Position numbers and translations under genes: made by a program. This document shows, piece by piece, positions 31,620 through 59,396 of a DNA stretch of 64,000 nucleotides; the first letter of the stretch is position 1; the number at the start of each line of letters is the position of its first letter. Origin of the DNA: Henckelia pumila (Eukaryota; Streptophyta; Magnoliopsida; Lamiales; Gesneriaceae); contig NC_133121.1 in assembly GCF_033568475.1 (NCBI RefSeq), positions 4,402,001 through 4,466,000 on the forward strand. The letters are read 5' to 3'. Under the pieces are notes generated by a model that saw nothing but the letters and a program-made list of their open reading frames with translations, did no database searches and had not been told where the DNA came from.

Positions 31620-34373
31620 CATGCACCATGTTGTATCTACTAGCTAGTTTATGTATTTATTATATTATATATATCAAATGACGGGTTTTAAATGTGTCTT
31701 GCTTAGAGTTCTCTAAAGTCTTCTATTTTTTATGAGTTCCGATCCGTACTTTGTTTGTGTTTATGAATTTATGTAACGATGTGATCAAGAGCAACAATTT
31801 TAGTTACAAGTACTTATTATTAAATAATGTTGTAATAAAAGATTCACGTACATTACATCAATTTTCTACTTGCATAGAAACTATATATATGTTACCCGTT
31901 TTGTACGTTTAAGTACCGTCGAGCTAGCGAGCTTAATTCCCCCTAATAAATTTTCTCCGGACCATAGCTGCAACCACACTCCCAACTTCCAACTAATTTA
32001 TTTTCAACACAGAGTTATAATAAATGCATGGGTCTATAAATAAATAAATATGATATAATATTATAGATGGTATAATATAGTATTATATAGATGGTATATT
32101 TTCCACTCGTTGAACAGCTTGAGGGAGATTAGATTATACTCACATGAACTAAATATTATATTATTAAAAACTGATTAAAAATTTGGTGTTCTACAAAATA
32201 ATACTCTCTCTCTCGAGCCGATTTCGTCATCTGCACCATTAAAATCGTGTGTTGCATGTCCGATTTACGCTATTTTCGTGATACAATGAACGATCATAAG
32301 ATTCTCGCATGCGATCTGTCGATTTCTTGGTCACGAAAAAAGGGTTGGTTTTAAAGTTGGGGGTGCATGGGAATGCATGTCTGATTTCTTCTTTTGCCCA
32401 TAATATCATGCAAATCAAATGTATTTTTTTTTTGGAAGAACAAGACAAACCAATTTATGATTTTTAATTATTAATCTTTTTTCTTCTTGCAAATAAATTT
32501 ATAATCTCCAAAAGATTTAAACCAAAATTTGGTCTTTATAGGGTTTACAAATTCTCAAGTTTTGTTTAAATCTTGAATTTAAGAATTTTATTAAAAAATA
32601 TGTAAGATATTATTTCTTAGAAAGTGGGGTAACTAAGGTTTATTTTTAATTGTTAAAAAATAAAACTGAAGAAGAGAGAAAAAGAGAAAATGATATATAG
32701 TCACGTGAAAAGGAACAAAGAAGGGGTTGATATTATTACTCACTAGTCACTCCGCTCATACATAAATACCGCATTTACTTTTTCATTTGTCTCTTATATA
32801 GAGTTCAATTTTCATATTTAATATCATTTTATCTATTCTTTTATCAATCTACCTCAGTCATTAAATACATTGCACACTTCCAACATTTTTATAATCTCAA
32901 AATATTCATTAAACAATAGTAAAATCTAAAATTTATTTTTTCAATAATTTTCTTAATTTGTGTACAAATACACCACCAAAGGACTTGTACCAGTGATCAA
33001 GACAATTCGCTAATGGAGCGAGTTGTTTGGCAAAAGAAGGGACGACAGGTCCCCTTCAACTTAATTTGGTACATGAACCGGGCAATGAACCTTGCCATAT
33101 TTGACCCGCTAGTGGCTCGCGTTATCCTTATCATCGGGCGTGTTTCAAATCAATCATAATTATCTATACTCTAAGTAAATGAATAGAACTTGATTTTGAA
33201 TGGTTAAAAGTAGTCTCTTTATCCATACATGATCTCTATAAATTCAAGTAAAATGATTATTTTCACCTTAGACGTGGTCGGATCGATGTCCAATCTGACT
33301 CGATTATTTCGATGAATGAATTTCAAATATATTGGCGTAAAGTGGAATTCAATGAATCATTCATCTAATCAAATCTTAATTAAATGCAAGCATGGAATTC
33401 AAACATAAATTATGTTTATAATATAACATTAATTACAAAACAAGTATAATGGTCCAATTTCATCCAATATTGAACTATCGAGCACTTGAAAGATCTTTAT
33501 TTGGATACGGTGTATTTAAGAAATTTGTTTGCTAGATAGAGCTATTAAGGCCCATTCTGGTCTACGTGGACGGAAACAAGGGATAGCTCCACCAACCCTC
33601 CAACTACTAATTAAAGCCTTGTGTTCAACACATCAAGTGTCTTATTTTAAAATTTTATAAAATTATTCCCAAAAAGCTTACTCTCAGTTTGTATTTCTAA
33701 AATTAAATAACTAAATACATTTGGAAGACAATATATCACGTCGACGATTCTTTTTGCCCCGTGAAAAGAGTATTTAAGTTGGTGTTGTAGATGACCGTTT
33801 AACCATTAACTTCAACCAACATTTCATTCATCAACAAGTTAGTCACACATAATTTATCTAGTATATATGATAACATCTACAAGACATATATATAATAAAA
33901 AAAACATCTTTTAAAAAACAAAAATCCTCATCCCAAACATTCATCATCACATTCCTCGATTAAAAATAATGAATGATATGATCCGTATTTTTTTTGGTTA
34001 TATATACACTCCACTTACCTGAATCATATATATATAGGATAACAATAAAGAGAGTTTAAATTGAATAAATTTCTGAAGTTAAAGGTTAACATAGATTTAA
34101 AAAGAAATAAGAATACACGTAAAACACTATAATCATTTATATGTATATGTATAACACACACAAACAAAGCAAAACATAAACACAAAACAAAACAAAACAA
34201 AGAGGTGTCTAGACTATACTCGTGCAAGTCCCAACGGTGCACCTTGTAATAAATGCACGCATCAAATAATGCCACAAATTAAAGCAGCTACATTAATCCA
34301 ATATAAGCATGGTAAAAGCTTATATTCTTCATAAATCAAGAAACAAGATTGCAGCTAGCAAACCAGATCAATC
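31620..34373. other. Long intergenic region; last 0.9 kb is a duplicated promoter
   Basis: No gene is recognised. From about 33420 to the AAE ATG the sequence has a diverged partner upstream of the second AAE gene (about 45240-46519). Shared words include cacttgaaagatct / cacctgaaagatct, tagagctatt...ttctggtctac, gggatagc and ttcttcataaatcaag just before the ATG. Promoter and gene were thus duplicated together. A less AT-rich patch at 32990-33140 was not identified. Confidence 0.55.
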
Positions 34374-36278
34374 ATGTACCCACTGAAGCAATCTCCCGCA
34401 AATTACAATTCTTGGCTTCTTTTGTCACCAGATCTCCAAGAAACACACAACCCACTGTGGAAGAAATCATGGAAACCGAGTTGTAAAAAGCTTGATTCCA
34501 GGGCTGCAACAAAATGCATCATTCAAACTCCTGAATCTGTGCCTCTCATGAATAACAAATCCGCACCTTTCGTTCATGAAACCGAAAGATTCCCAGAAAG
34601 CAAGATGAAGCGAAGATCTCGTGCGGCGAACACGACTCCTCTCACTCCTGTAGGGTTCTTGGAAAGGGCTGCTGTGGTTTATGGAGACTGCACTTCTGTT
34701 ATTTACAAGGAGGAAACTTATACATGGTCTGAAACTCACGCCAGATGTGTGAGATTGGCTTCTTCGATCGTGTCTCTTGGCATCAAGAAAGGCGACGTGG
34801 TTTCTGTAGTGGCGCCAAATATCCCTGCCATGTGTGAGCTCCATTTTGCGGTTCCTATGGCTGGAGCCATTCTCAATAACGTTAATCTTCGGTTGGATGC
34901 GAAAGCCATCTCCAATTTGCTTCAGCACAGTGAGTCTAAGCTTGTGTTTGTTGATTATCAATCATCTTCGTCTGTTCTGGAAGCTGTTTCTCTGTTTCCT
35001 CCGAATCTGAAACGCCCTGTTTTAGTTCTGATCAATGAAGATGATCAAGATGATAATCAGATCAATGGGAGTTATGATCATTTCCAAATGATTTACGAGA
35101 AAATGGTGAAAAATGGTGATCCGGGATTCAAATGGATTCGTCCCGACAGCGAGTGGGAACCGATTACTCTGAATTACACCTCCGGCACCACCTCTTCTCC
35201 TAAAGGAGTGCTGCACAGCCACCGCGGAGCATTCTTGATAGCTATAGATTCTTTACTTGATTGGTCAGTTCCAAAGCAGCCGGTGTACTTGTGGACGCTT
35301 CCTATGTTCCACGCCAACGGGTGGTCCTACGCCTGGGGCATGGCCGCCGTTGGCGGCGTTAACGTGTGCCTCCGCCGTGTCGATGGACCCTCCATCTGTG
35401 ATGCATTACGCAAGCATAAAGTAACACACATGTGCGGCGCACCGGTGGTGCTAAACATGATAACTAATTACCTCGGCGGGAAACCTCTGGATAGTCCCGT
35501 TCAAATCATGACCGCCGGCGCGCCACCTCCAGCGGCGGTCCTCGGCCAGGCGGAGAGATCAGGTTTCATCGTGAGCCATGGATATGGGTTGACGGAAACC
35601 GGCGGGCTTGTGGTAACATGCGCGTGGAAGCAAGAATGGAACGATCTGCCGGATCAAGAAAGAGCCCAACTGAAAGCAAGACAAGGAGTGGCGAGCATCG
35701 GATTCGCGGAGGCCGACGTAGTGGAGCCCGAAACAGGGGCGAGCGTGAAAAGGGACGGGGCGACAATAGGCGAAATCGTGTTAAAAGGTGGATCCGTGAT
35801 GCTTGGATACCTCAAAGATCCCGAAGGAACCTCGTACTGCATGAGGGACAACGGCTGGTTTTACACCGGAGACGTGGGCGTGATGCACCCGGACGGATAC
35901 TTGGAAGTGAAAGACAGGTCCAAGGACATCATCATCTGCGGCGGCGAGAACCTGAGCAGCGTGGAGGTGGAGGCCGTGCTTTACTCCCATCCGGCGGTGA
36001 ACGAGGCGGCGGTGGTGGCGCGTCCCGACACGTTCTGGGGAGAGACGCCTTGCGCGTTCGTGAGCTTGAAGGAGAATTTGAAAGAGAAGCCGACTGAGAA
36101 GGAGATAAGGGAGTTCTGCAAGGCGAGGATGCCGCTTTATATGGTCCCGAGAATGGTGGTTTTCAAGGCGGAGCTTCCGAAGACTTCGACTGGTAAACTT
36201 CAGAAGTTTCTGCTCAGAGATATGGCGAAAGCTTTGACTCCGAAGTTGAGTGTGGTTGAATCCGATAAGCTCCATTAA
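34374..36278 (+). CDS. Acyl-activating enzyme (AMP-binding acyl-CoA ligase), tandem copy 1
   Basis: Intronless, 634 residues. It resembles the plant AAE1/5/6 'peroxisomal' group, which activates a carboxylic acid through an acyl-adenylate and passes it to CoA. Landmarks: TPLTPVGFLERAAVVYGDCT (from about 87), the P-loop NYTSGTTSSPKG (about 267-278), HANGWSYAWGMAAVGG, HGYGLTETGG, GWFYTGDVGVMHPDGYLE, KDRSKDIIICGGENLSS, and the catalytic Lys near the end (PKTSTGKLQKF, about 607). Catalytic motifs look intact. Two oddities: residues 11-86 are an insertion between the family's N-terminal SPAN and TPLTP words, and the C-terminus (ESDKLH) is not a canonical peroxisomal signal. The ATG was chosen because copy 2 conserves MYPLKQS. 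Substrate unknown. It is closely related to the gene at 46.5 kb. Confidence 0.93.
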   Translation: MYPLKQSPANYNSWLLLSPDLQETHNPLWKKSWKPSCKKLDSRAATKCIIQTPESVPLMNNKSAPFVHETERFPESKMKRRSRAANTTPLTPVGFLERAAVVYGDCTSVIYKEETYTWSETHARCVRLASSIVSLGIKKGDVVSVVAPNIPAMCELHFAVPMAGAILNNVNLRLDAKAISNLLQHSESKLVFVDYQSSSSVLEAVSLFPPNLKRPVLVLINEDDQDDNQINGSYDHFQMIYEKMVKNGDPGFKWIRPDSEWEPITLNYTSGTTSSPKGVLHSHRGAFLIAIDSLLDWSVPKQPVYLWTLPMFHANGWSYAWGMAAVGGVNVCLRRVDGPSICDALRKHKVTHMCGAPVVLNMITNYLGGKPLDSPVQIMTAGAPPPAAVLGQAERSGFIVSHGYGLTETGGLVVTCAWKQEWNDLPDQERAQLKARQGVASIGFAEADVVEPETGASVKRDGATIGEIVLKGGSVMLGYLKDPEGTSYCMRDNGWFYTGDVGVMHPDGYLEVKDRSKDIIICGGENLSSVEVEAVLYSHPAVNEAAVVARPDTFWGETPCAFVSLKENLKEKPTEKEIREFCKARMPLYMVPRMVVFKAELPKTSTGKLQKFLLRDMAKALTPKLSVVESDKLH

Positions 36279-36957
36279 TGGAAGCTGAAGGGGCTCAGCT
36301 CTTCTCTCACTCTGCAGTAAAATAAAATTATTATTATGGGAATTGAGAGTGAGTCGATTTCGTTTTATTTTCTATAAAATTACATGTGATAATCCATTAA
36401 TTAGGTGAAATATTTATTCAAAGTTTATCTTAATCAAATTCGATGATTATGCTTGTCATTTGCAGTGTGACATATTTGCAGTGAAGTGTAATATCTATTT
36501 TTTTTTAAAAAAAACAACAAATTAATATGTGTTGTTTCGTGTTGTGATTGTGATTTGATATATGGTATCCAATTTTGTTCCATGTAATTAAATTTCAATT
36601 GTTTGAACCATTAATTAGGTTGTAGGATGATTATAACATGATGCATAGTTGGGTTAATTTAATTACTTAATGAACATATATGGGGTATATAGATCATTAC
36701 AGCCAATAGTTCTACTGTATGTTTTATTTTTTTTTATTTTTAAAAAAATTCTTCCTCATGTAATGAAATAATTTGGAGAACTAATTTTAAAAAATCGCAC
36801 GCCCACACGCACAATAATTTATGAAAAGCCACGATCCAAAATTCATTTACCCTAGTGTATGTTTTGGGGCAGACATGGATTTCCTGCATTTGCCGGGATG
36901 CTTGATTATACTTTGCTAAGCTATTTCCAAATATACTTTATTTGAAAGTGTGCCCTT
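36279..36957. other. 3' flank of AAE copy 1
   Basis: Includes the 3' untranslated region (tggaagctgaagggg resembles the start of the copy 2 flank). The last five bases (36953-36957, CCCTT) are the left TSD of the copia element. Confidence 0.5.
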
Positions 36958-37201
36958 TGTTGTGAAAAAGTAAAAATTTCAAAACTCAAAATATATCAAA
37001 CTCTACACTTCACAAATATTTTTCTCTCAACTCAATTGTATTTTTCATCACAAATGAAGACCTATTTATAGATCCACATTTGAGATTAGTCCAAAAATTA
37101 AAACATCATCATCTACATCATCACACACTAATTTTCCATATTTTACAACTCAATATTCAACATTCAATATTCAACAATAATAAAATAATATATTTTCAAC
37201 A
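36958..37201 (-). repeat. Left LTR (3' LTR of the copia element)
   Basis: 244 bp. Read on the minus strand it starts TGTTGAAAATATATT and ends CACAACA. It is nearly identical to the right LTR apart from a couple of substitutions and one short length difference. Confidence 0.93.
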
Positions 37202-40200
37202 CTCCCCCTTGTGATGATGATCGTCATATGATGATTGTCTTTATTACGTGTTTTATGTTGCCTCGTTAAAAACCTTACAAGAAAAAACCCAGTGGGATAA
37301 AAACCATAGTAAGGAAAAAAGAGTGCAGCCACGTAAACTCCTCCTCATGTTAACATGAGTGATTCTTCACATATTCCGTAGATTGCGCATCCCAATGTTG
37401 TATATATGCTTTCTGAATATCGTCGTGGGAAGTGCCTTTGTGAAGAGATCTGATGAGTTCTCACTTGATTGAATGTAACAGATATCAATATCTTTATTCT
37501 TCTCAAGCTCTTGAGTGTAGGAAAAGAATTTTGGGGGGATATATTTGGTTCTGTCACTTTTGATGTATCCTTCTTTCATTTGAGCAATACATGCAACATT
37601 ATCTTCATATAGTGTCACAGGCTTCTTTTCTACTGTCAATCCACACGATATTTGAATATGTTTGGTCATTGACTTTAACCATACACAATCACGACTTGCT
37701 TCATGTAATGCAATAATCTCGGCGTGATTTGATGAAGTTGTTACGAGTGTTTGTTTCTGTGAACGCCAAGAAATTGCAGTGCCTCCACGAGTAAATACAT
37801 ATCCGGTTTGGGAACGTGTCTTATGTGGATCAGATAAATTTCCAGCATCAGCATAACCAATGATACTTTGATTGGTGTCTTTTGAGTACAAAAGTCCCAA
37901 ATCTGTCGTTCCTCGTAGATAACGGAATATATGTTTAATTCCGTTCCAGTGCCTCTTTGTTGGATATGAAATGAATCTTGCCAATAAATTTACAGCAAAA
38001 GATATATCAAGTCTAGTGCAATTTGCAAGATACATAAGGGCACCAATGACACTTAGATATGGTACTTCTGGACCAAGAATAACTTCATCATCTCCACATG
38101 GACGGAATGGATCCTTTTCTATGTTTAATGATCTTACAACCATTGGAGTACTTAATGGATTTGATTTATCCATATTAAAACGTTTAAGGATCTTTTCTGT
38201 ATAATTTGTCTGGTGAACAAAAATTCCACATTCTTTTTGTTCGATTTGCAAACCCAGACAATACTTGGTTTTTTCAAGATCCTTCATTTCAAATTCTTCC
38301 TTCAAGTACATCATAACTTCTTGAATTTCTTTATTCGTTCCAATGATGTTTAAATCATCAACATATACAGCAATAATTACACATCCGGATGTTGTTTTCT
38401 TGATGAAAACACAAGGGCATATTGGATCATTTACATATTCCTTTTTCATCAAGTGCTCACTTAGCCGATTATACCACATTCGACCGGATTGCTTTAACCC
38501 ATATAATGATCTTTGCAATTTTACAGAATAAAATTCTCTGAGTTTTGAACTTTGTGCTTCAGACATCTTAAATCCTTCAGGGATTTTTATGTATATATCA
38601 CTATCAAGTGATCTGTATAAGTAAGCTGTAACAACATCCATAAGACACATGTCCAAATTTTCAGACACTGCCAAACTAATCAAATATCGAAACGTAATTG
38701 CATCCATAACAGGACAATACGTTTCTTCATAATCAATTTCAGGCCTTTGAGAAAAACCTTGTGCAACAAGTCTAGCTTTATATCTGACTATTTCATTTTT
38801 CTCATTTCGCTTTCGAATAAAAACCCATTTGTATCCAACAGGTTTTACACCTTCAGGTGTGAGGACTATAGGTCCAAAAACATTGCGTTTATTCAACGAA
38901 TCCAATTCAACCTGGATGGCATCTTTCCATTTGACCCAATCATGACGAGTTTTACATTCACCAAAAGATTTTGGTTCATGATCCTCATTTTCATTTACGA
39001 TGTCACAAGCCACATTATAAGAAAATATCTCATCAATATCTTCTATGTCTTTTCGGTTCCATATTTTTCCAGTATTAATATAATTGATAGAGATTTCACG
39101 ATTCTCGTCAGTTTGTGGTTCTGACAGAATATTTTCATCATCAGGTGATTCTTCTGGAACACTATTTTCTATTTTATGGTCGTCGTGTTTCTTTATGCCT
39201 TTTTTTGTTCCGAGGATTTTTATCCTTGGAACCGACTGGTCTTCCATGCTTCAAGCGTTTTATGACATCATGAGTGTCTTCAATTTGTTTCTTTGGAATT
39301 TCAATTCGAGCAGGGGCATTTACAGCATGTATATATGATTTTGTTACCCCTTTTGTGTCTGCAAATGCATCTGGCATTTGATTTGCAATTCTTTGCATGT
39401 GCACAATTTGTTGTACATCTTTCTCACATTGTTTGGTCCTTGGATCCAAATGTAACAATGATGATATATACCATGTGATTTCTTTTTCGATGTGTTTCTT
39501 TTCTCTCCCTAACACTGGGAAGATTTCTTCATTAAAATGACAATCAGCAAAGCGTGCTGTAAACACATCTCCTGTCTGAGACTCAAGATATCGAATGATT
39601 GATGGACTATCATAACCGATATAAATACCGATTTTTCTTTGTGGACCCATTTTTGATCGTTGAGGTGGTGCAATAGGCACATACACCATACATCCAAAAA
39701 TTCTCAGATGAGAGATATTTGGTTCTTTACCAAATGCAAGTTGCAATAGGGAGAATTTATGATATGCACTTGGTCTGATGCGAATTAATGCCGCAGCATG
39801 TAAAATTGCATGTCCCCATATAGAAATAGGGAGTTTTGTTTTCATAATCATTGGTCTAGCAATCAGTTGTATACGTTTAATCAATGATTCAGCTAATCCA
39901 TTTTGCGTATGAACATGAGCTACGGAATGTTCAACAGTGATTCCCATTGACATACAATAATCATTGAAAGTCTGGGATGTAAATTTTCCAGCATTATCAA
40001 GTCTTATTTTCTTGATTGTATAATCGAGAAATTGATTTCGCAATTTTATTATTTGAGCCATCAATCTTACAAATGCCACATTTCGAGTTGACAATAAGCA
40101 TACATATGACCATCTGCTAGAGGCATCGATCAATACCATAAAGTATCGAAATGGTCCACATGGTGGATGAATTGGCCCACAAATATCACCCTGAATACGT

Positions 40201-42310
40201 TCAAGAAATATGGGTGATTCAGTTTGGATTTTAGCTGGCGATGGTCTTATAATAAGTTTTTCAATAGAACATGCTTTACATTGAAACTTATTATTCTGAA
40301 AGATCTTCTGGTCTTTCAATGGATGACCATGCGTATTTTCAATAATTCTTCGCATCATTATTGAACCAGGATGTCCCAATCGATCATGCCAATTTGTTAA
40401 TATTGAAGAACTATTAACCACCATATTTGATTCGATTGGCCTTATATGTGTATAATGCAATCCAGTAGGGAGCATTGATAATTTTTCAACCACATATTTC
40501 TTTCCTGATTTATATGTGGTAAGACACATATATTTCTGATTTCCATCAGTTATCGTCTCAGTATCATACCCATGAGAGTATATGTCATTAAAACTCAACA
40601 AATTTCTTTTCGATTGTGGTGAATATAAAACATCATTTATCAGAAATTTTGTACCATTAGGTAACAAAAAATGTGCTTTTCCACAACCTTTAATCAAGTC
40701 TACATGACCTGATATGGTATTCACCATTGTTTTTGTTGGTTTTATTTCCAAGAAATATCTTTCATCTCGCAGAATAGTGTGTGTTGTACCACTATTTGGT
40801 ATGCAAATTTCCATGATATTATTTCCATATTTGCTCATAGCATTTTCCATACTTCAAAAAAATGCAATAAAGAAAATCAAGGATAATATATATATGCAAA
40901 ATATAGCATGTTTCATAAGAATGCATAAAAAATATAGCATGTTACATTTCAGTCCCACCAATATATTAATCAATGTTCTCGAAATCATTTGAAAAAATCG
41001 ACGACATTGAAATAAGTTGAACCATTTAAATGGTTACTGTTTTCAACAAAATTGGTCTCTTTTTTTTTCCCTTTTATCGATATTTTAAAGAGCTTACATA
41101 AGTGCTCAGGGGTACATGACCAATGTCTTGGAGTGCCACATTTATAACAAACACTCTCATATCTTTTTGAGTGATTTTTATTTCCACTCATATTTTCATG
41201 CTGCCTTTTTGGGTGGTTCGTGACGTTCTTTTGAGATTAGTTATTGAAGTAACTATCTCGATTATTTTCATATTCACGGCCATAACCACGACCACGATCA
41301 TTTCTACGTCCACGTTCATGACCACATCCTCGACCTCAACCAAAATCTAGTTTATGCCTTTGATTTTGGTTTTCATTTTTTACTTACGACATTTGCTTCT
41401 GGAAATGCCGTAGATACATTGAGTCGGGATTGATGATTTCTCATTAACATTTCTTTGCTCTTTTCTAGTGATATCGAGAGCAACGAATTTAAACTTTGCC
41501 AAATTTGACATGGTGGTACTAGAAAAATAACAATGTATTTTATAAGTTAATTTCCATTAATATGACAATACAAAATAATGGATAAACGATGAGTACAAGT
41601 ACGTGTACAAATAGAGAAAAAGTATGTGGTGGAAAATCGCTAGTGAGTACAAGACTCGTGAGCATGATGATCATAATCGTTATGAAAAATAGCCTTAGAA
41701 ATGTCATCATCTTCATCTTCGAAAAAACCGAGGAGAAAATATTTTGAGAGAAAGAGTGAATTTTGGTGTGATTGGAAATGAGTTTGAGTGAACATTTTTA
41801 TAGGCCAAAAACTAGCCGTTTGTGCCCGTTTGTGACCGTTGGGGGTAAGAAAAAATCGAGTATGTGTTGAATAAAAATTCGTGATAATGATGCAATGCAT
41901 ATAATGATAATCATAATTAAATAATTACGTATATCATATCACATTATTATAAGGTCGGTGTCATAGACAACCTTTTATATAATAACATGAAATTATATAT
42001 TAATATAGTTAATATATATACATAATAAATATATATCATGTTATTGTTTAAAAACTTTAGAGGCTTTTATACTTGTCGTATCCCTTACCGGGAGTGTGGG
42101 ATGTCGTCTTAACATCCTCCCAGGATTTATAACAAGTTTTTAAAAAAACTAATTTTTTTTTCATAACATGATAATATATATTAAATATATATACAATAAA
42201 TAAATAAACAATAAAATAAATATTCTTACTTGTTGAATATTTTTGACTTCTTCTTGTATTTTGGAGCGTCGAAAAATATAGAGAACCTTCGAGCGATCGT
42301 GCTGATAACG

Positions 42311-42574
42311 TGTTGTGAAAAAGTAAAAATTTATGGTAAAAAGTAAAAACTCCAAAACTCAAAATATATCAAACTCTACACTTCACAAATATTTTTCTCT
42401 CAACTCAATTGTATTTTTCATCACAAATAAAGACCTATTTATAGATCCACATTTGAGATTAGTCCAAAAATTAAAACATCATCATCTACATCATCACACA
42501 CTAATTTTCCATATTTTACAACTCAATATTCAACATTCAATATTCAACAATAATAAAATAATATATTTTCAACA
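42311..42574 (-). repeat. Right LTR (5' LTR of the copia element)
   Basis: 264 bp, matching the left LTR end to end. It differs mainly by about 20 extra bases near its outer R/U5 side. It is followed by the CCCTT target-site duplication. Confidence 0.93.
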
Positions 42575-45500
42575 CCCTTATATATGCGCTTGGGAAATAT
42601 GGACAACAAAGTCAAATCCTTCATTATCTTAGTGTTTTTTTTTTTTGTTTTTGTTTTTTTTTTGTCTCGCATTTACAAATATATGATTACGTACGGTTGC
42701 ATTTACGTGAAAGAACTTGATTTGAAAGAAAATATTTGATTAAGATATGATTAAACAATTGTGAATCATGAATAAATGTATGTCAAACAAAGTTCTAAAA
42801 AGTTTAAAGCGTATTGTAACGTGAAAGCCAAATTTTAAATTTTTTAAACTTAAGCGAGAATAATACAAGCTTAAGCTGAAAAAAATATTTTCAATTTAAA
42901 CTATAATTTTAGTTATCACAAAAAAATTAACGGAGTAAATAATGCATAAATATAATAAAGTTCAAGAGTAATGCATTAATTTTTTTCTGAGATTCGAATT
43001 CAATTTAATTTATTTCATCATTCATTTCATTTTTTGTGTCATTATGCATAAATTAAATTATCTGATCTACATGACAAACAGTAGATGTAATATCCTTTAA
43101 TTTGTACTGCATTCACATCATCGATTTACTTAACCATCCAAAAGTGTACATTTCTAACATAATTTACTAGCAAAATCGCTAATTTGTGCCCTTCGTTTTA
43201 TTAATCGATTTTGGTTTTTAAAAAAGTCGCATTTGAGCTTATTTAATTACATTTAATATGGTTAACTTATATTTGACCACTTTTGATCGAAGTCAAGCGT
43301 TTTGGGGAAGCTTCAAGCTTAAATAAGATTAAAAAAAGGTTTAATCAAGTTTTTTAGAACACTGATTCTAATATATTTCCACACAAAAAAACAAAAAACT
43401 CAAGTAAGATCATATAAAATTATTTTGTAAGACAGATTTCAGATCATCTCGTTGAAATTATTATTTTATATCTAAATATCATTTCACTAAAAATTATCAT
43501 TTTCGTTAATTATGTTAAAAAAAAATATTGTGTTATATATGGTTTTTTTTTACGTTGAAAATATTCAGCTCATAAAAAATAATAATTTTTATGTTAAAAA
43601 TATTAATTTTTATTGTAGATATAAATCATATCAACTCATTTAATGGATACGCGCACAAATCCGTGACACTGTTACGTATAAGACCTACTTCCAAGTTCCA
43701 ACACAATTGTTGTTATATTTAACTAAATGCATAAATGGTGGAGTTTAGCCCAAAAATAAAATGGATTTAAAATCGTAGATAGCGTGAAGGGATGAAAAAT
43801 TTTTCTTCCTATTGATTTAATTTGTTCTCACAAATTGTTGGCCAACTAATTATAAGGGGCTAATTTCAAAATTCCTTTAAGTTGGCGTATATAAGATTTT
43901 TGGTCCTCCAATTAATCAAATCGCCAATAATTTTCACCATATTGATGTTAGTACTAACCATGCTGTCGAGAATAATGAAAGTAACACACAAAAAACTTGG
44001 AGTTGGAAAAAATAAAATGCAATATTTTTTTTATTTTTTTACACAGTAGAGGTGTGAGATTTTTCTATCTAAACTACGTACAAGTCCCATAAGGAATATG
44101 TCAGTTTTTGTAGAGTAATTGACGAAAATTTTCTTAAACTCGAGATTTTATGTCAAACTTGTGAAGTTAGCACAAATAACATGGTTTTTGTATTAGATGG
44201 TTTGATCCATAGTTAATGAAATTAGTTTTCTAAAATAAAAAAAAAAAACATCATGATCCGTTTTGTCTTTTCATGACTTCATAGAAGCTGTTTGTTAGTC
44301 CAATGAGTCCATTCATGGAATGTGTGCCCAAAAACCAGAAGATAGCCCGACCATTATCATGAGGTGGGCTGATATTCCATTTTTGTCATGGATTCAAGAA
44401 TATCGTTTTTCTTTTGGGCCCAACAGTAATTAAATATTATATTTCATTTTTTATATATGTAAATCTACATGGCATTGTATACATATATAATCTAAAAACG
44501 TTCTATGTAAAAAATATTACTTTACACGATAACGTGAATAAAATCTACTTGCTAAGATTGTGTTTGGTTACGGAAGCAAATCAAAGAAAAACACTTATTT
44601 TTTTTAAACAAGTGATTTTTTAAAAAAATTTAGGTGTTTGGTTAAAATTCGTTTTTAAAAACACACTTATTTAATATAGTGTTTGGTAGAGCTTTTTGAA
44701 AGCACTTCACAACTTTTTTTTAACAAAATTTTAATTTTTTTTGAAATTTCGTTAAGAAAAAACTGATAAATACTTCCTAGAAGCTTTTTCAAACACTAAA
44801 TAAGTTCAAATAAGCGTGTTTTTTAAAGCCAAAAATTTTGGTTTATGGACTTCTACTTATGTTTTTATTTAAAAAATCAAATTTTCAACATTTATTCAAA
44901 CGCTAAAATCGCTTCTGTTTTTTTTTTTATATATAAAAACACTTTAAAAAGCTGAAGTTATTTAAATGATTTTTTATGTCAATGACTTTTATATCCAAAC
45001 GAATCCCGGATATATACTTGTGAAACTATCTGACAAAATACTCACTCAAACAAAATATAATCGAGTGAAGGACGTCAAACAAAGATATAAGATCTTCTTT
45101 ACTTGTACTCCGATCCAAGTCTCACCTTTTTCACTTTTTTCTTAAATTGTGCTTTGATTCATCAATTTGATTTGAGATTAAGTTAAAAAGATATATTTCA
45201 CATGCCTCAAAAAAAGTTCGATAATACGAGTACAAGAAGTACCTTTACAGATATAGGCTTAACTACAAGTCCAGTAGCGGTCAAATTTCATCCTTTTTTT
45301 ATTATTTTTTTGAGAATTTCACAAACTAAATTATTAAGCACCTGAAAGATCTATTTTGGATTATTTTTAAAAATAATAATAATAATATAATAAAAAGAAA
45401 AAAGAACAAAAAATATCTATTTTGGAGTTCGGTCGATGCTACCCTTCGAACACTATCTGAATGATGCATCTTAAGGTCCAATTTTTTTTCACCCAAGATG

Positions 45501-46519
45501 TTCATGGAAACTTGACGGATGAATTTTTTTTTTTTTGATCCTTAGATCTAGCACACTAGCATCAACTAATTCCTATTTTGCATACGGTGCCATTAACAAA
45601 TTAGTTAGCCAGTTAGAGCTATTCTGGTCTACATATTTGTTTGGGAAATTAGGGATAGCACAAACCAACCCCTGCGCCAACAACGAATTAAAGCTCTATA
45701 TAGTAAATTAAAAATCTAAAAATTACATTATACATAAAGCGTTACAATACTATTAATTTATTATTTTATATTCCCCCAAAAAATATATATGTTTCATGAT
45801 AACATTTCACATTTCTCAGTCATTCTTTGTATTAATTATTTAATTCAACTTCTCATCTCTTCCAAAGATAAATTAAATTCCAACGCTTCATGGTATCTAT
45901 ATGACTATGTTTGTAACTTTGTACTATATATAAAAAAACGAGTGACGTTCGTTGTTATGAAAAATTATAATTTTTATACTAATCCCTGTCCCTGCTCTAA
46001 TAAGAGTGTTCACCCAAAAAAAAAAAATCAAATTTACAAAATCAAAGTTGAAAAATAAAATCTGAAAAATTATATGAACATAATCACACTTTCAATAAAA
46101 TTACTCTTTTTTTTTCTTTTTCAAAAAAAAAAACGGTACATAGGTTTAAATGCACACAAGGAAGGCTATCAAATTTATATATTATACTTAAAAAACGAGG
46201 TGGCCAAACTTTATCCGCTCAATCCCCCACCTTAGTTAACTTCTAACATCGGTTAATTTCTTTGTTTTACCTTTGTAATTTCAATGTTATAGTAATATAA
46301 TATTAAAAGATAAAAAAAAAATTTAAAGTTATTTCATCAAATGCAATATAAGATTATCTAATAGACCAAAACTTTAATTTAATTTCCCCCCAATAAAAGT
46401 ATGATGTCAATTAATGCTAGTAAGCAGCTACGTAAATCCAATATATATAATATATTACATTCACAAAGCTTTTGTTCTTCATAAATCAAGTCCAAACTTG
46501 CACCCGCAAGCCAAGAACC
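42575..46519. other. Intergenic region; distal part is the AAE copy 2 promoter
   Basis: No gene is seen. A decayed patch at about 43390-43680 has aagacagattt and repeated 'ttttatgttaaaaatatt' words and resembles an old interspersed repeat. From about 45240 to the ATG the sequence is a diverged copy of the region upstream of AAE copy 1 (33420-34373). Confidence 0.5.
44558..45006. mobile_element. MITE-like AT-rich element (weak)
   Basis: Weak inverted ends are seen: ttgtgtttggttacgg on the left and ttcgtttggatataaaa for the right end reverse-complemented. Between them lie repeated tgtttggt, acactttaaaaagc and cttatttaa words in both orientations. It resembles the element at 7.5 kb in style. 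No target-site duplication was found. Confidence 0.35.
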
Positions 46520-48379
46520 ATGTATCCACTGAAGCAATCTCTTGCAAATTATAACACTAGCCTTCTTTCCTCACCATATCTCCAAGAAACACACAACCTC
46601 CTGTGGAAGAAATCATGGAAACCGAGTTGTAAAAAGCTCGATTCCATGACCGCAACAAAATGCATCATTCAACCTTCAGAATCCGTGCCTCTCACGAATA
46701 ACAAATCCGTCCCTTTCGTTCAAGAAAACGAGAGATCTTCTGCGGCGAATTCAACCCCTCTCACTCCTTTAAGGTTCTTGGAAAGGGCTGCCGTGATTTA
46801 TGGAGACTGCACTTCCGTTATTCACAACGAGAAAACTTATACATGGTCTGAAACTCATGCCAGATGTGTGAGATTGGCTTCTTCGATCGTGTCGCTAGGC
46901 ATCAAGAAAGGCGACGTGGTTTCTGTAGTGGCGCCTAATATCCCTGCCATGTGTGAGCTTCATTTTGCGGTTCCTATGGCTGGAGCCATTCTCAATAACG
47001 TTAATCTTCGGTTGGATGCGAAAGCCATCTCCAATTTGCTTCAGCACAGTGAGTCTAAGCTTGTGTTTGTTGATTATCAATCATCTTCCTCTGTCCTGGA
47101 AGCTGTTTCTCTGTTTCCTCCGAATCTGAAACGCCCTGTTTTAGTTCTGATCAATGAAGATGATAATCAGATCAATGGGAGTTATGATCATTTCCAAATG
47201 ATTTACGAGCAAATGGTGAAAAATGGTGATCCGGGATTCAAATGGATTCGTCCCGACAGCGAGTGGGAACCGATTACTCTGAATTACACCTCCGGCACCA
47301 CCTCTTCTCCTAAAGGAGTGCTGCACAGCCACCGCGGAGCATTCTTGATAGCTATAGATTCTTTACTTGATTGGTCAGTTCCAAAGCAGCCGGTGTACTT
47401 GTGGACGCTTCCTATGTTCCACGCCAACGGGTGGTCCTACGCCTGGGGCATGGCCGCAGTTGGCGGCGTCAACGTGTGCCTCCGCCGTGTCGATGGACCT
47501 TCCATATGCGAAGCGTTACGAAAGTATAAAGTGACAAATATGTGTGGTGCACCGGTGGTGCTAAACATGATAACTAATTACCTTGGCGGGAAGCCTCTGG
47601 ATAGTCCAGTTCAAATCATGACCGCCGGTGCGCCGCCTCCAGCGGCGGTTCTAGGCCTGGCGGAGAAACTGGGATTCGTCGTGAGCCATGGATATGGGTT
47701 GACGGAGACCGGCGGGCCTGTGGTAACATGCGCGTGGAAGAAAGAATGGAACAATCTGCCAGCACTAGAAAGAGCCAAACTGAAAGCAAGACAAGGAGTT
47801 CGGACCATCGGATTCGCGGAGTCCGATGTAGTCGATCCCGAAACAGGGGCGAGCGTGAAAAGGGACGGAAAAACAATAGGCGAAATCGTGTTAAAAGGTG
47901 GATCCGTGATGCTTGGATACCTCAAAGATCCCGAAGGAACCTCGTATTGCATGAAAGATGATGGCTGGTTCTACACCGGAGACGTGGGCGTGATGCACCC
48001 GGACGGATACTTAGAGGTGAAAGACAGGTCCAAGGACATCATCATCTGCGGCGGCGAGAACCTGAGCAGCGTGGAAGTGGAGGCCGTGCTTTACTCCCAC
48101 CCGGCGGTGAACGAGGCGGCGGTGGTGGCGCGTCCCGACACGTTCTGGGGAGAGACGCCTTGCGCGTTCGTGAGTCTGAAGGAGGACTTGGAAGAGAAGC
48201 CGACGGAGAAGGAGATAAGGGAGTTCTGCAAGGCGAGGATGCCGCTTTATATGGTCCCGAGAACGGTGGTTTTCAGGGCGGAGCTGCCGAAGACTTCGAC
48301 CGGTAAACTCCAGAAGTTTCTGCTCAGAGATATGGCGAAAGCTTTGCCCCCGAAGTCGAGGGTGAGCGAATCCGATTAA
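46520..48379 (+). CDS. Acyl-activating enzyme (AMP-binding acyl-CoA ligase), tandem copy 2
   Basis: Intronless. An upstream in-frame ATG exists at 46472, but 46520 was chosen because it opens with MYPLKQSLANYN, matching copy 1, giving 619 residues. The same family landmarks are present: TPLTPLRFLERAAVIYGDCT, NYTSGTTSSPKG, HANGWSYAWGMAAVGG, HGYGLTETGG, GWFYTGDVGVMHPDGYLE and PKTSTGKLQKF. The reaction should be ATP- and CoA-dependent activation of a carboxylic acid; substrate unknown. It carries a 67-residue version of the N-terminal insertion seen in copy 1, without the PESKMKRRS part. The C-terminus is ...RVSESD, so no peroxisomal signal: a stop replaces the KLH found in copy 1. A central 247-bp block (47211-47457) is identical to copy 1 (35101-35347) while flanking parts differ more, suggesting gene conversion. 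Confidence 0.92.
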   Translation: MYPLKQSLANYNTSLLSSPYLQETHNLLWKKSWKPSCKKLDSMTATKCIIQPSESVPLTNNKSVPFVQENERSSAANSTPLTPLRFLERAAVIYGDCTSVIHNEKTYTWSETHARCVRLASSIVSLGIKKGDVVSVVAPNIPAMCELHFAVPMAGAILNNVNLRLDAKAISNLLQHSESKLVFVDYQSSSSVLEAVSLFPPNLKRPVLVLINEDDNQINGSYDHFQMIYEQMVKNGDPGFKWIRPDSEWEPITLNYTSGTTSSPKGVLHSHRGAFLIAIDSLLDWSVPKQPVYLWTLPMFHANGWSYAWGMAAVGGVNVCLRRVDGPSICEALRKYKVTNMCGAPVVLNMITNYLGGKPLDSPVQIMTAGAPPPAAVLGLAEKLGFVVSHGYGLTETGGPVVTCAWKKEWNNLPALERAKLKARQGVRTIGFAESDVVDPETGASVKRDGKTIGEIVLKGGSVMLGYLKDPEGTSYCMKDDGWFYTGDVGVMHPDGYLEVKDRSKDIIICGGENLSSVEVEAVLYSHPAVNEAAVVARPDTFWGETPCAFVSLKEDLEEKPTEKEIREFCKARMPLYMVPRTVVFRAELPKTSTGKLQKFLLRDMAKALPPKSRVSESD

Positions 48380-57704: not shown

Positions 57705-59396
57705 CTAAAGCCTGCTCATTTTCGACGCCCCCATCGCCGCCGCCGCCTTCCTCAGCACAAATTTCTGTATTTTTCCGGTGGAGGTTTTCGGCAGCTCATC
57801 CATAAAAACCACCGTCTTCGGCACCATGTAGCGCGGCAGTTTCTCCCGGCAGAAGGCTATGACGTCGCTCTCCGCCGGCCTCTGCTTCACCCCCTCCTTC
57901 AAGCTGACGTACGCACACGGCGTCTCACCCCAGAACTCGTCCGGCCGCGCCACCACCGCCGCCTCGTTCACCGCCGGATGAGTGTACAGCACGGACTCCA
58001 CCTCCACGCTGCTCAGATTCTCTCCGCCGCTGATGATTACGTCCTTTGATCTGTCTTTGATTTCCAAGTACCCATCCGGGTGCATCACCCCGACATCTCC
58101 GGTGAAGAACCAGCCGTTTTTCATGGATTTCGACGTGCTTTCGGGATCGTTAAGGTACCCAAGCATTATGCATCCACCTCTCAACACGATTTCGCCAAGA
58201 GTCTTCCCATCTCGAGCCACGCTTTTCTCCGATTCAGGATCGATCACATCCACCTCCGCCATTCCCACCGTTCTCACTCCCTGTCTAGCCTTCAGCCGCG
58301 CCCGCTCCGCCGCCGGGAATCTGTTCCAATCTCGCTTCCAAGAACAGCAAACCACCAGCCCTCCCGTCTCCGTCAGCCCATACCCATGACTCACAACAAA
58401 CCCGAGTGACTCTGTTTTAAAAAGAACCGCCGCAGGCGGCGGAGCGCCGGCGGTCAGGATATGAACAGGCCTTTCCAGCGGCTTTCCATCTGGAACATTC
58501 GACAGCATGTTGAGCACCACCGGCGCGCCGCACATGTGGGTCACTCTGTGTTGGCGTATGTTGGCGTAGATAACAGAGGCGTCGAATTTTCGGAGGCAGA
58601 TATTGGTTCCCCCGACTGCAGCCATTCCCCAGGGGAAGCTCCACCCGTTGGCGTGAAACATGGGCAGAGTCCACATGTAAACAGGCTCTTTCGGAACAGA
58701 CCACTCAAGCAATGAATCCAGAGCAACGATGAATGCTCCCCGATGGCTATGGACTACTCCTTTCGGAGCAGAGGTGGTTCCGGAAGTGTAATTCAAAGTC
58801 AATGGATCATACTCAGATTTCGGAAGAACCCAATCGAAATCATCACTACCCATCGAAATCATCTCTTCGTAATTACCCTGAAAATCCCGATTCTCCGACT
58901 CCCCTTCACTTATAATCACAAGCAAAGGTCGCCGGAAATCACTAGGAAACAGAGACAACGCTTCAAGAACCAAAGACACCGATTGATGATCGACGAATAC
59001 AAGCTTCGGCCGAGCATGGCGGAACAGAACAGAGACCGTACGTGAATCGAGCCGCAGGTTGACGGTGTTGAGCACTGCTCCGGACATGGGTATGGCGAAA
59101 TGAAGCTCGTACATGGCCGGGATATTCGGAGCCACCACAGAGACCACGTCTCCCGGGACGATGCCTAGAGAACAAATCGAAGACGCCATTTTCAAGCATC
59201 TGCGGTGGGTCTGAGACCATGTATAGGAGACGGAGTCGTAAACGATTGAAGGGCAATCGGCGTAAACGGTGGCGGCTCTCTGGAGGAATCCGATCGGCGT
59301 TAGAGGGCTGGAATTCGCGGGGCTGGGCTTGAGTTGATCCATGAATCTCTGGTTTCCTTCCGATGGAGATGGAGATGTTTTGTTCTTTGGATACAA
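57705..59396 (-). CDS. Acyl-activating enzyme, peroxisomal type, third paralogue
   Basis: Intronless, 563 residues from the first ATG. An internal Met19 opens MDQLKPSPANSSPLTP, which matches the usual family start and could be the true start (59342). Landmarks: NYTSGTTSAPKG (202-213), HANGWSFPWGMAAVGG, HGYGLTETGG, GWFFTGDVGVMHPDGYLE, KDRSKDVIISGGENLSS, and PKTSTGKIQKF with the catalytic Lys. The C-terminus ASKMSRL ends in SRL, a canonical type 1 peroxisomal targeting signal. It should activate a carboxylic acid (for example a short- or medium-chain fatty or aromatic acid) to its CoA ester in peroxisomes; the substrate cannot be read from sequence. It lacks the N-terminal insertion of the two copies at 34.4 and 46.5 kb and is clearly more diverged. 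It lies in opposite orientation and closes the AAE cluster. Confidence 0.94.
   Translation of the reverse strand: MYPKNKTSPSPSEGNQRFMDQLKPSPANSSPLTPIGFLQRAATVYADCPSIVYDSVSYTWSQTHRRCLKMASSICSLGIVPGDVVSVVAPNIPAMYELHFAIPMSGAVLNTVNLRLDSRTVSVLFRHARPKLVFVDHQSVSLVLEALSLFPSDFRRPLLVIISEGESENRDFQGNYEEMISMGSDDFDWVLPKSEYDPLTLNYTSGTTSAPKGVVHSHRGAFIVALDSLLEWSVPKEPVYMWTLPMFHANGWSFPWGMAAVGGTNICLRKFDASVIYANIRQHRVTHMCGAPVVLNMLSNVPDGKPLERPVHILTAGAPPPAAVLFKTESLGFVVSHGYGLTETGGLVVCCSWKRDWNRFPAAERARLKARQGVRTVGMAEVDVIDPESEKSVARDGKTLGEIVLRGGCIMLGYLNDPESTSKSMKNGWFFTGDVGVMHPDGYLEIKDRSKDVIISGGENLSSVEVESVLYTHPAVNEAAVVARPDEFWGETPCAYVSLKEGVKQRPAESDVIAFCREKLPRYMVPKTVVFMDELPKTSTGKIQKFVLRKAAAAMGASKMSRL

Follow-up and report, generated by a model that had tools for sequence, protein, structure and literature searches.

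AAE proteins without a peroxisomal PTS1 have been described close to relatives that carry one. In Cannabis, CsAAE1 lacks a PTS1 and is assigned to the cytoplasm, beside the PTS1-bearing CsAAE12 (PMC11380790), and this arrangement of a PTS1-less AAE near peroxisomal relatives resembles that of the Henckelia pumila tandem gene pair described here. The accessible portion of that report mentions no inserted N-terminal block, whereas the tandem pair has one, and the likeness does not imply a common subfamily. Among Arabidopsis duplicates, location has also shifted after duplication through N-termini or C-terminal peroxisome signals, as we propose for the tandem pair, although in the accessible part of that source the N-termini were altered by a start-codon switch or by substitutions and not by an inserted block (PMC4202327). 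An inserted N-terminal block in any AAE is not reported in the titles or abstract openings of the literature matches listed, which is a partial and weak indication.

The window that we analyzed is a 64,000-nucleotide stretch of the H. pumila genome (contig NC_133121.1, positions 4,402,001 to 4,466,000 of the forward strand), and it contains both tandem copies as well as a third paralogue. Copy 1 (34374..36278, + strand) encodes 634 aa and copy 2 (46520..48379, + strand) encodes 619 aa, each in an uninterrupted ORF. In copy 2, position 46520 is the first family ATG and 48377-48379 is the stop; the ORF as listed opens upstream of this ATG, with a TTG at 46472. Both copies exceed the Pfam cut-offs for the AMP-binding and AMP-binding_C domains (copy 1: PF00501, E 9.1e-76; PF13193, E 5.4e-24), and copy 1 scores 712 bits against NCBIfam NF006020, for which the cut-off is 677. 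The motifs YTSGTTSSPKG and YGLTE and the C-terminal PKTSTGK region are found in both copies, and we take them to have the roles assigned to them. The third paralogue (L005, 57705..59342, - strand, 545 aa) is a PTS1-bearing plant AAE with two domains identical in kind to those of the tandem pair. It is 66% identical to copy 1, while a further paralogue, L006, is 64% identical, and the CDS of both is uninterrupted, as in the tandem pair. Both nevertheless differ from the pair in having a contiguous start (unbroken MDQLKPSPANSSPLTP in the third paralogue) and a C-terminal SRL, whereas the tandem copies have a block of 67-76 aa and no PTS1. We presume that the third paralogue and L006 are peroxisomal proteins of the AAE5/AAE6 type, and that the product of the tandem pair acts on short or branched-chain, or aromatic, acids, as family knowledge would suggest.

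The preliminary description of this locus had noticed that the family start is interrupted in the tandem pair, and this observation held throughout. The contiguous start M..LK.S.AN..PLTP is broken in both copies, with the start word separated from its xTPLTP continuation by 76 residues in copy 1 (34404..34631, + strand, 76 codons) and by 67 residues in copy 2 (46550..46750, + strand, 67 codons). The block is conserved between the copies, as LWKKSWKPSCKKLDS and ATKCIIQ are identical in the two, and the AAN said to echo the start word at the second junction can be read in both. Family codons 9-10 are present at both junctions of the block. On the left, they are followed by one base in GCAAATT, both in copy 1 (34398..34404, + strand) and in copy 2 (46544..46550, + strand), and on the right they recur as GCGAACA in copy 1 (34626..34632, + strand) and as GCGAATT in copy 2 (46745..46751, + strand). 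The left and right junctions are thus equal at 6/7 bases in copy 2 and at 4/7 in copy 1, and GCGAATTCA at the right junction of copy 2 equals L006 at 9/9. Copy 1 has a 27-nt segment within the block (34587..34613, + strand) that is absent from copy 2 and holds an in-frame ATG at 34605 (MKRRSRAAN). In an 885-Mb H. pumila genome, none of the eight other AAE paralogues with a readable start contains the block, so the possibility that it is common to most plant AAE proteins is not borne out, at least within this genome. Since the block is shared by both copies and missing from the 8/8 other paralogues, the insertion most likely preceded the duplication, and an in-frame insertion within the family start, retained by both tandem copies, is the best-supported reading of these comparisons.

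The block of copy 1 is open in the frame that is used and in no other of the six, which exceeds chance, as 1014 of 20000 random 228-nt stretches of the window were open in one frame. Two internal CDS indels separate the genes (27 and 9 nt), and both keep the frame. Between the codons of copies 1 and 2, dN/dS is 0.39 in the block, with a bootstrap interval of 0.18-1.02 that includes neutrality, and 0.19 (0.13-0.28) in the body. Between the genes, the block changes faster than the adjoining body, with approximately 25 changes in 200 block sites and 12 in 280 body sites assigned to copy 2 or the stem. The excess of synonymous change in the block over the neutral expectation has a P value of 0.03-0.23, varying with rounding and assumption. 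Taken alone, it has no sequence match in Pfam, NCBIfam, or PDB, and AlphaFold2 gave a poor model of copy 1 from a 4-sequence alignment (mean pLDDT 37).

Under an insertion, the start word on the left and the family start should be homologous, and the DNA comparisons indicate that they are. Apart from the third paralogue itself, the ATG of copy 1 ranks first and that of copy 2 second among window ATGs (2490 others) in likeness to the start of the third paralogue. An ungapped 30-nt comparison with the third paralogue, made over 63970 + strand positions, gives its top score to the copy 1 ATG, with 20/30 bases matched at offset 0 in copy 1 and 19/30 in copy 2, against 14 and 17 for the runners-up. 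The signal is weaker with the L006 start as the query, for which 34374 ranks 8 and 46520 ranks 133 of 2491 ATGs. It could be argued instead that the block is a former 5' leader made coding by the gain of an upstream ATG and that the likeness of MYPLKQSPAN is accidental. A protein aligner indeed sets the paralogue starts against the second junction, and the score of one of four leader comparisons, that between L006 and copy 2, was reached by just 1/200 shuffles. Homology of the block to a paralogue leader is nonetheless unsupported in the other three comparisons, which were equalled by 45, 67, and 72 of 200 shuffles each, and in the DNA comparisons it is the start on the left that matches best, while the second junction resembles the family only from GCGAAT onward. 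A leader origin is accordingly very improbable. A different objection is that the block goes untranslated, either because translation starts downstream of it or because it is spliced out. Copy 1 could begin at ATG 34605, yielding MKRRSRAANTTPLTP, a protein of near-family length that would dispense with most of the block; yet when the 2491 ATGs are ordered by resemblance to the start of the third paralogue, this one comes only at rank 220. Copy 2 does not have it at all, and from codon 43, within the block, its next in-frame ATG is codon 144, inside the AMP-binding domain. Consequently, a working copy 2 would translate part of the block, barring a non-AUG start, and the downstream translation raised in the preliminary description as an objection to the insertion would not spare it the whole block. 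As for splicing, we listed in-frame GT-AG pairs delimiting 70 nt or more and found 20 within the first 300 nt of copy 1 and 9 within the first 270 nt of copy 2. None of them removes the whole block while sparing the start codon, and the partial pairs common to both copies use a donor, GTGGAA, that is poor by eye. The GC content of the block (0.43, against 0.29-0.31 upstream) also speaks against an untranslated block, which we consider unlikely.

Returning to an insertion, its source and its consequence have each been open to another interpretation. A genome-wide DNA search with the block gave seven matches, namely the two genes and five loci that all carry further AAE sequence, so no source for its DNA emerged from the genome. 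No donor was found there by DNA, by sense translation, or by part of one antisense frame, with only the best candidates scored, and the only additional matches in the translated searches were insignificant (E 6.6 and 2.3). Three of the five loci are Pack-MULE-like elements (L042-L044; C2:88.81 Mb, C4:221.26 Mb, and C1:139.14 Mb) that contain copy 1 sequence from the upstream region through the leader into the 5' CDS (34183..34940, + strand, as 34183-34342 plus 34340-34940). They have the long TIRs (114-127 bp, 86-92% identity) and a target-site duplication within the 9-11 bp expected of Pack-MULEs, with 10-bp flanks identical in 3/3 at end offsets of 0-2 bases, the flank of L044 being AT-only, and the AAE 5' end lies inside. 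With the Pack-MULEs described elsewhere, they share TIRs, distinct target-site duplications of ~10 bp, occurrence in several copies, and a captured host-gene fragment, and against the accessible portions of those reports nothing about them seems unusual; the captured gene would already have contained the block (PMC13317346, PMC8277862). The other two loci (C1:12.93 Mb and C1:121.14 Mb) belong to a larger repeated segment (L040/L041) of at least 12.9 kb with a piecewise identity of 94-97%, whose largest copy 1 piece is 34410..34650 (+ strand) and which additionally carries pieces 35544-35600 and 35661-35722. The location of all five in mobile or duplicated DNA, together with a junction repeat of the target-site-duplication type in copy 2, might suggest that a transposon delivered the block and that the dispersed copies, instead of having been captured, are related to this transposon. 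We find this highly doubtful. All five hold AAE enzyme-domain sequence and three hold the copy 1 upstream region, indicating a flow from gene to element; no AAE-free copy is among the matches, and no terminal inverted repeats of the block could be seen by eye. Moreover, within the block the elements agree with copy 1 at 23 sites where copy 2 differs, the Pack-MULE-like copies alone agree with copy 2 at 1 site, and there are 0 sites at which copy 2 and every element copy agree against copy 1. Mobile DNA thus appears to have spread the first part of copy 1 around the genome later. The 27-nt segment is kept in 5/5 dispersed copies, with its ATG retained in L019 and L021 and altered in L013-L015. 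Each of the five has a frameshift or stop, while both tandem genes remain open; the three Pack-MULE-like copies have 8 common indels within the captured CDS, of which 7 have a length not divisible by 3, and further lesions are a stop in L013, two stops in L019, and a 1-nt deletion plus a stop in L021.

With regard to consequence, the preliminary description had suggested a new targeting region, and one could picture a new mitochondrial or plastid presequence in place of the PTS1. The block does lie at the N-terminal end, and a PTS1, judged by tripeptide, is missing from both tandem copies, which end in ...ESDKLH (36243..36278, + strand; KLH) and ...SRVSESD (48344..48379, + strand; ESD), while 6/8 other paralogues show SRL, SKL, or SRM (none found in L045; L047 not resolved). 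In the distant paralogue L045 there is an Arg-rich extension and no PTS1 was found, which suggests that targeting switches may occur in the family. The tandem N-termini nevertheless lack the composition and hydrophobic moment of a mitochondrial or plastid presequence, as the first 40 residues of either copy are devoid of Arg and include acidic residues (2 in copy 1 and 1 in copy 2), the best hydrophobic moment is 0.35-0.37 compared to 0.50 in L045, and no PTS2-like motif occurs. A presequence is thus improbable, and with no Arg, low amphipathicity, and weak constraint the targeting role is unsupported; what stands of the preliminary description is the shared, in-frame insertion. A change of location is instead predicted from the C-terminal end. 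As both copies are without the PTS1 that 6/8 paralogues show, we consider it most likely that the enzyme is cytosolic and that its added tail is tolerated.

The history that we favor, with a probability of roughly 0.65, starts in the common ancestor of the tandem pair. There, an AAE gene with an intronless CDS would have received ~220 bp of DNA, for which no source was found, in frame behind its codon 10, so that codons 9-10 came to flank the insert (a ~7 bp duplication). Along this stem the gene would also have lost its C-terminal PTS1, possibly by loss of a stop behind an SRV/SRL-like end, and the gene with the block and without the PTS1 would then have been duplicated in tandem. Copy 2 would afterwards have lost 27 nt of the block, including the internal start codon kept in copy 1. 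Judging from sequence, the pair most likely encodes an active acyl-CoA ligase, presumably cytosolic because its PTS1 is gone, and the block would not serve as an organelle address but would form a tolerated N-terminal tail under weak constraint. Several results count against this account: the junction repeat is 4/7 in copy 1 and terminal inverted repeats are unseen by eye, the protein aligner favors the second junction, the L006 query ranks the two starts 8 and 133, and the block has a dN/dS interval reaching 1.02 and changes faster than the neighboring body. It is also conceivable, if rather unlikely, that the block is protein sequence born from inserted non-coding DNA and kept by selection, along with the PTS1 loss, for a new location or partner, in which case the pair would represent a lineage-specific cytosolic or organellar branch.

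Among the family members found in the genome, the combination of the block and the PTS1 loss appears to be a remodelling unique to the pair. If the relocation is true, it would parallel the PTS1-less, cytoplasmic CsAAE1 of Cannabis, as far as the accessible portion of that report goes (PMC11380790). The case opens no long-standing question. It may offer a readable example of an enzyme remodelled before tandem duplication, through a new N-terminal segment for which no source was found and the loss of a peroxisome tag, both common to the pair, with the element-borne copies serving as a built-in control on whether the block stays coding.

The tandem acyl-activating-enzyme (AAE) genes comprise copy 1 (34374-36278, + strand), an uninterrupted CDS of 634 aa, and copy 2, which runs from 46520 to 48379 and encodes 619 aa, while a third paralogue of 545 aa (L005) lies on the - strand at 57705-59342. 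In both tandem copies, the AMP-binding and AMP-binding_C domains are complete and the usual AAE motifs are shared. The window corresponds to C2:4402001-4466000 of the assembly searched (884.7 Mb, 133 contigs), which also includes a fourth close paralogue, L006, on the same contig ~83 kb upstream of copy 1. Between the tandem genes are two long ORFs (37367-40850, - strand), which we presume to resemble the halves of a Ty1/copia-type polyprotein, and there appears to be a retrotransposon here. A direct 238-bp repeat (98.7% identical, 36965-37202 and 42338-42575) flanks the ORF pair, as expected of either long terminal repeats or a local duplication of recent date. Within the tandem genes themselves, the DNA is near-identical over protein alignment columns 163-314 (34860-35315 and 46979-47425; dS 0 to 0.04), with greater divergence on either side (dS 0.18 and 0.41), a pattern suggestive of gene conversion from one copy to the other.

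The preliminary description held that the family start is split in both tandem copies by an inserted block of 76 (copy 1) or 67 (copy 2) residues, and these sizes and the words quoted are correct. Two positions are possible for the start of the other paralogues: the left word, MYPLKQSPAN, or the second junction (MKRRSRAAN in copy 1). Since the protein aligner favored the second junction, the placement was tested at the DNA level. With the third paralogue start (-20 to +33) as the query against the 2491 ATGs in the window, the ATG of copy 1 at 34374 was the best match after the third paralogue itself (score 51), followed by that of copy 2 at 46520 (score 36), whereas the ATG at 34605 ranked only 220 (score 18). 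The signal was weaker with the L006 start as the query, as 34374 ranked 8 and 46520 ranked 133. In ungapped 30-nt comparisons, offset 0 was best in all four tests, with 20, 19, 19, and 17 of 30 matches. Of the 63970 + strand window positions, 1, 2, 2, and 9 reached these scores, respectively. The second junction is family-like solely from GCGAAT rightward. Over the 36 bases after codon 11, L005 or L006 match it at 22-24 positions vs. 9-11 for the left junction. Together, the ATG ranks, 30-nt comparisons, and junction matches indicate that the family start is split with codons 9-10 on either side, and thus the insertion is well supported. The junctions of copy 2 (GCAAATT and GCGAATT) are equal at 6 of 7 bases, and a match this good or better at a fixed place has a chance of ~0.13% by a hand calculation that ignores picking the better copy; judged from sequence, the repeat resembles a repair scar or the trace of an old target-site duplication. 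However, the junctions of copy 1 (GCAAATT and GCGAACA) are equal at just 4 of 7 bases, which slightly lowers our confidence in the explanation as a whole (in-frame insertion before the tandem duplication, loss of the C-terminal peroxisome signal, and a probably cytosolic ligase) to roughly 65%.

All eight further AAE paralogues in which the start region was read (the third paralogue, L006/L051, and L045 to L050, leaving aside more distant AMP-ligase matches) lack the block and run AN-x-x-(P)L(T/S)P, though L048 and L049, which are on small contigs, are closely alike and could be one and the same gene. The block DNA has seven matches in the genome: the two tandem copies plus five dispersed loci. 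Three of these (L013-L015, or L042-L044) are copies of a ~2-2.2 kb element, 97-98% alike across 1785-2000 bp, bounded by terminal inverted repeats (114-127 bp) and 10-bp identical flanking repeats that differ in sequence per site (end offsets of 0-2 bases; the AT-only flank of L044 is weaker), a structure that would class them as Pack-MULE-like. They carry 34183-34342 and 34340-34940 of copy 1, i.e., the upstream region, leader, and about the first 189 codons. As complete elements, they are also a possible source of small RNA against the donor gene, copy 1, an idea taken from passages of PMC13317346. The other two loci (L019/L021, or L040/L041; C1:12927001-12937000 and C1:121135001-121145000) are copies of a larger segment (12.9 kb or more; pieces compared one at a time are 94-97% alike), which may be a large transposon or a segmental duplication. 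Both hold three AAE gene pieces in order (34410-34650, 35544-35600, and 35661-35722). Because enzyme-domain sequence is present within all five dispersed copies, the direction of transfer was from gene to element. At 23 block sites, these five side with copy 1 against copy 2; at no site does copy 1 differ from copy 2 and all five at once. Three derived sites are common to the dispersed copies, a hint that the source of both groups was an earlier allele or a third gene copy that is no longer seen.

The dispersed copies serve as a natural control for the coding status of the block. The Pack-MULE-like copies share eight indels in the captured CDS, seven of which are not multiples of 3, and L013 has an additional stop, L019 has two stops, and L021 has one stop plus a 1-nt deletion. 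Copies 1 and 2 differ internally only by indels of 27 and 9 nt, both in frame. The simplest reading of the former is that copy 2 lost these bases, as the segment is present in copy 1 and all five dispersed copies, a polarity short of proof given that these side with copy 1 anyway. Between the tandem copies, dS and dN are 0.29 and 0.11 for the block (ratio 0.39, bootstrap 0.18-1.02) vs. 0.17 and 0.033 for the remaining CDS (ratio 0.19, bootstrap 0.13-0.28). Synonymous changes accounted for 10.5 of 27 observed vs. 21-27% expected under a neutral substitution model, an excess with a one-sided P of 0.03 to 0.23 depending on rounding and assumption. Thus, the frame has been kept, though the constraint is weak and, on the synonymous test alone, inseparable from neutrality. 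Copy 1 has extra in-frame ATGs at codons 59 and 78, while copy 2 has none from codon 43, within the block, until codon 144, within the AMP-binding domain. Therefore, if the copy 2 enzyme is active, part of the block is translated, barring a non-AUG start.

The suggestion that the block is a targeting region found no support. The first 40 residues of the tandem copies contain no Arg, six Lys, and two (copy 1) or one (copy 2) acidic residues; over 18 residues, the hydrophobic moment reaches at best 0.35-0.37, and no PTS2-like motif was found at either N-terminus. With a mean pLDDT of 37, the AlphaFold2 model was of too low quality to be informative. By comparison, L045 (C1:92147001-92153500, minus strand), which we take to be AAE1-like, bears an Arg-rich extension of its own at the N-terminus (MNIFLRRCTAPRRIFGG...CPANHVPLTP) with five Arg in 40 residues and a moment of 0.50, and no C-terminal peroxisome signal (PTS1) was found at the stop of its main exon or within 1.2 kb behind it. 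These features would make L045, rather than the tandem pair, the stronger candidate for an AAE targeted to an organelle.

At the C-terminus, copy 1 ends in ESDKLH and copy 2 in SRVSESD, whereas six of the eight other paralogues end in PTS1 tripeptides: SRL in L005, L006, L048, and L049, SKL in L046, and SRM in L050 (the remaining two being L045, as above, and L047). The SRV followed by four further residues would fit loss of the original stop in copy 2. There are 54 known plant PTS1 tripeptides (PMC3487989), and a term search for SRV and KLH found neither in the main text of that source, whose passages do not include the full tripeptide list. PTS1 loss alone predicts a cytosolic enzyme. The tandem pair would in this respect resemble Cannabis CsAAE1, an AAE without a PTS1 that passages of PMC11380790 assign to the cytoplasm beside PTS1-bearing relatives, and passages of PMC4202327 document Arabidopsis duplicates that relocated through changes at the N- or C-terminus. 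Overall, one tandem pair in this genome shows a known enzyme family in remodelled form, accompanied by transposon capture of an ordinary kind.
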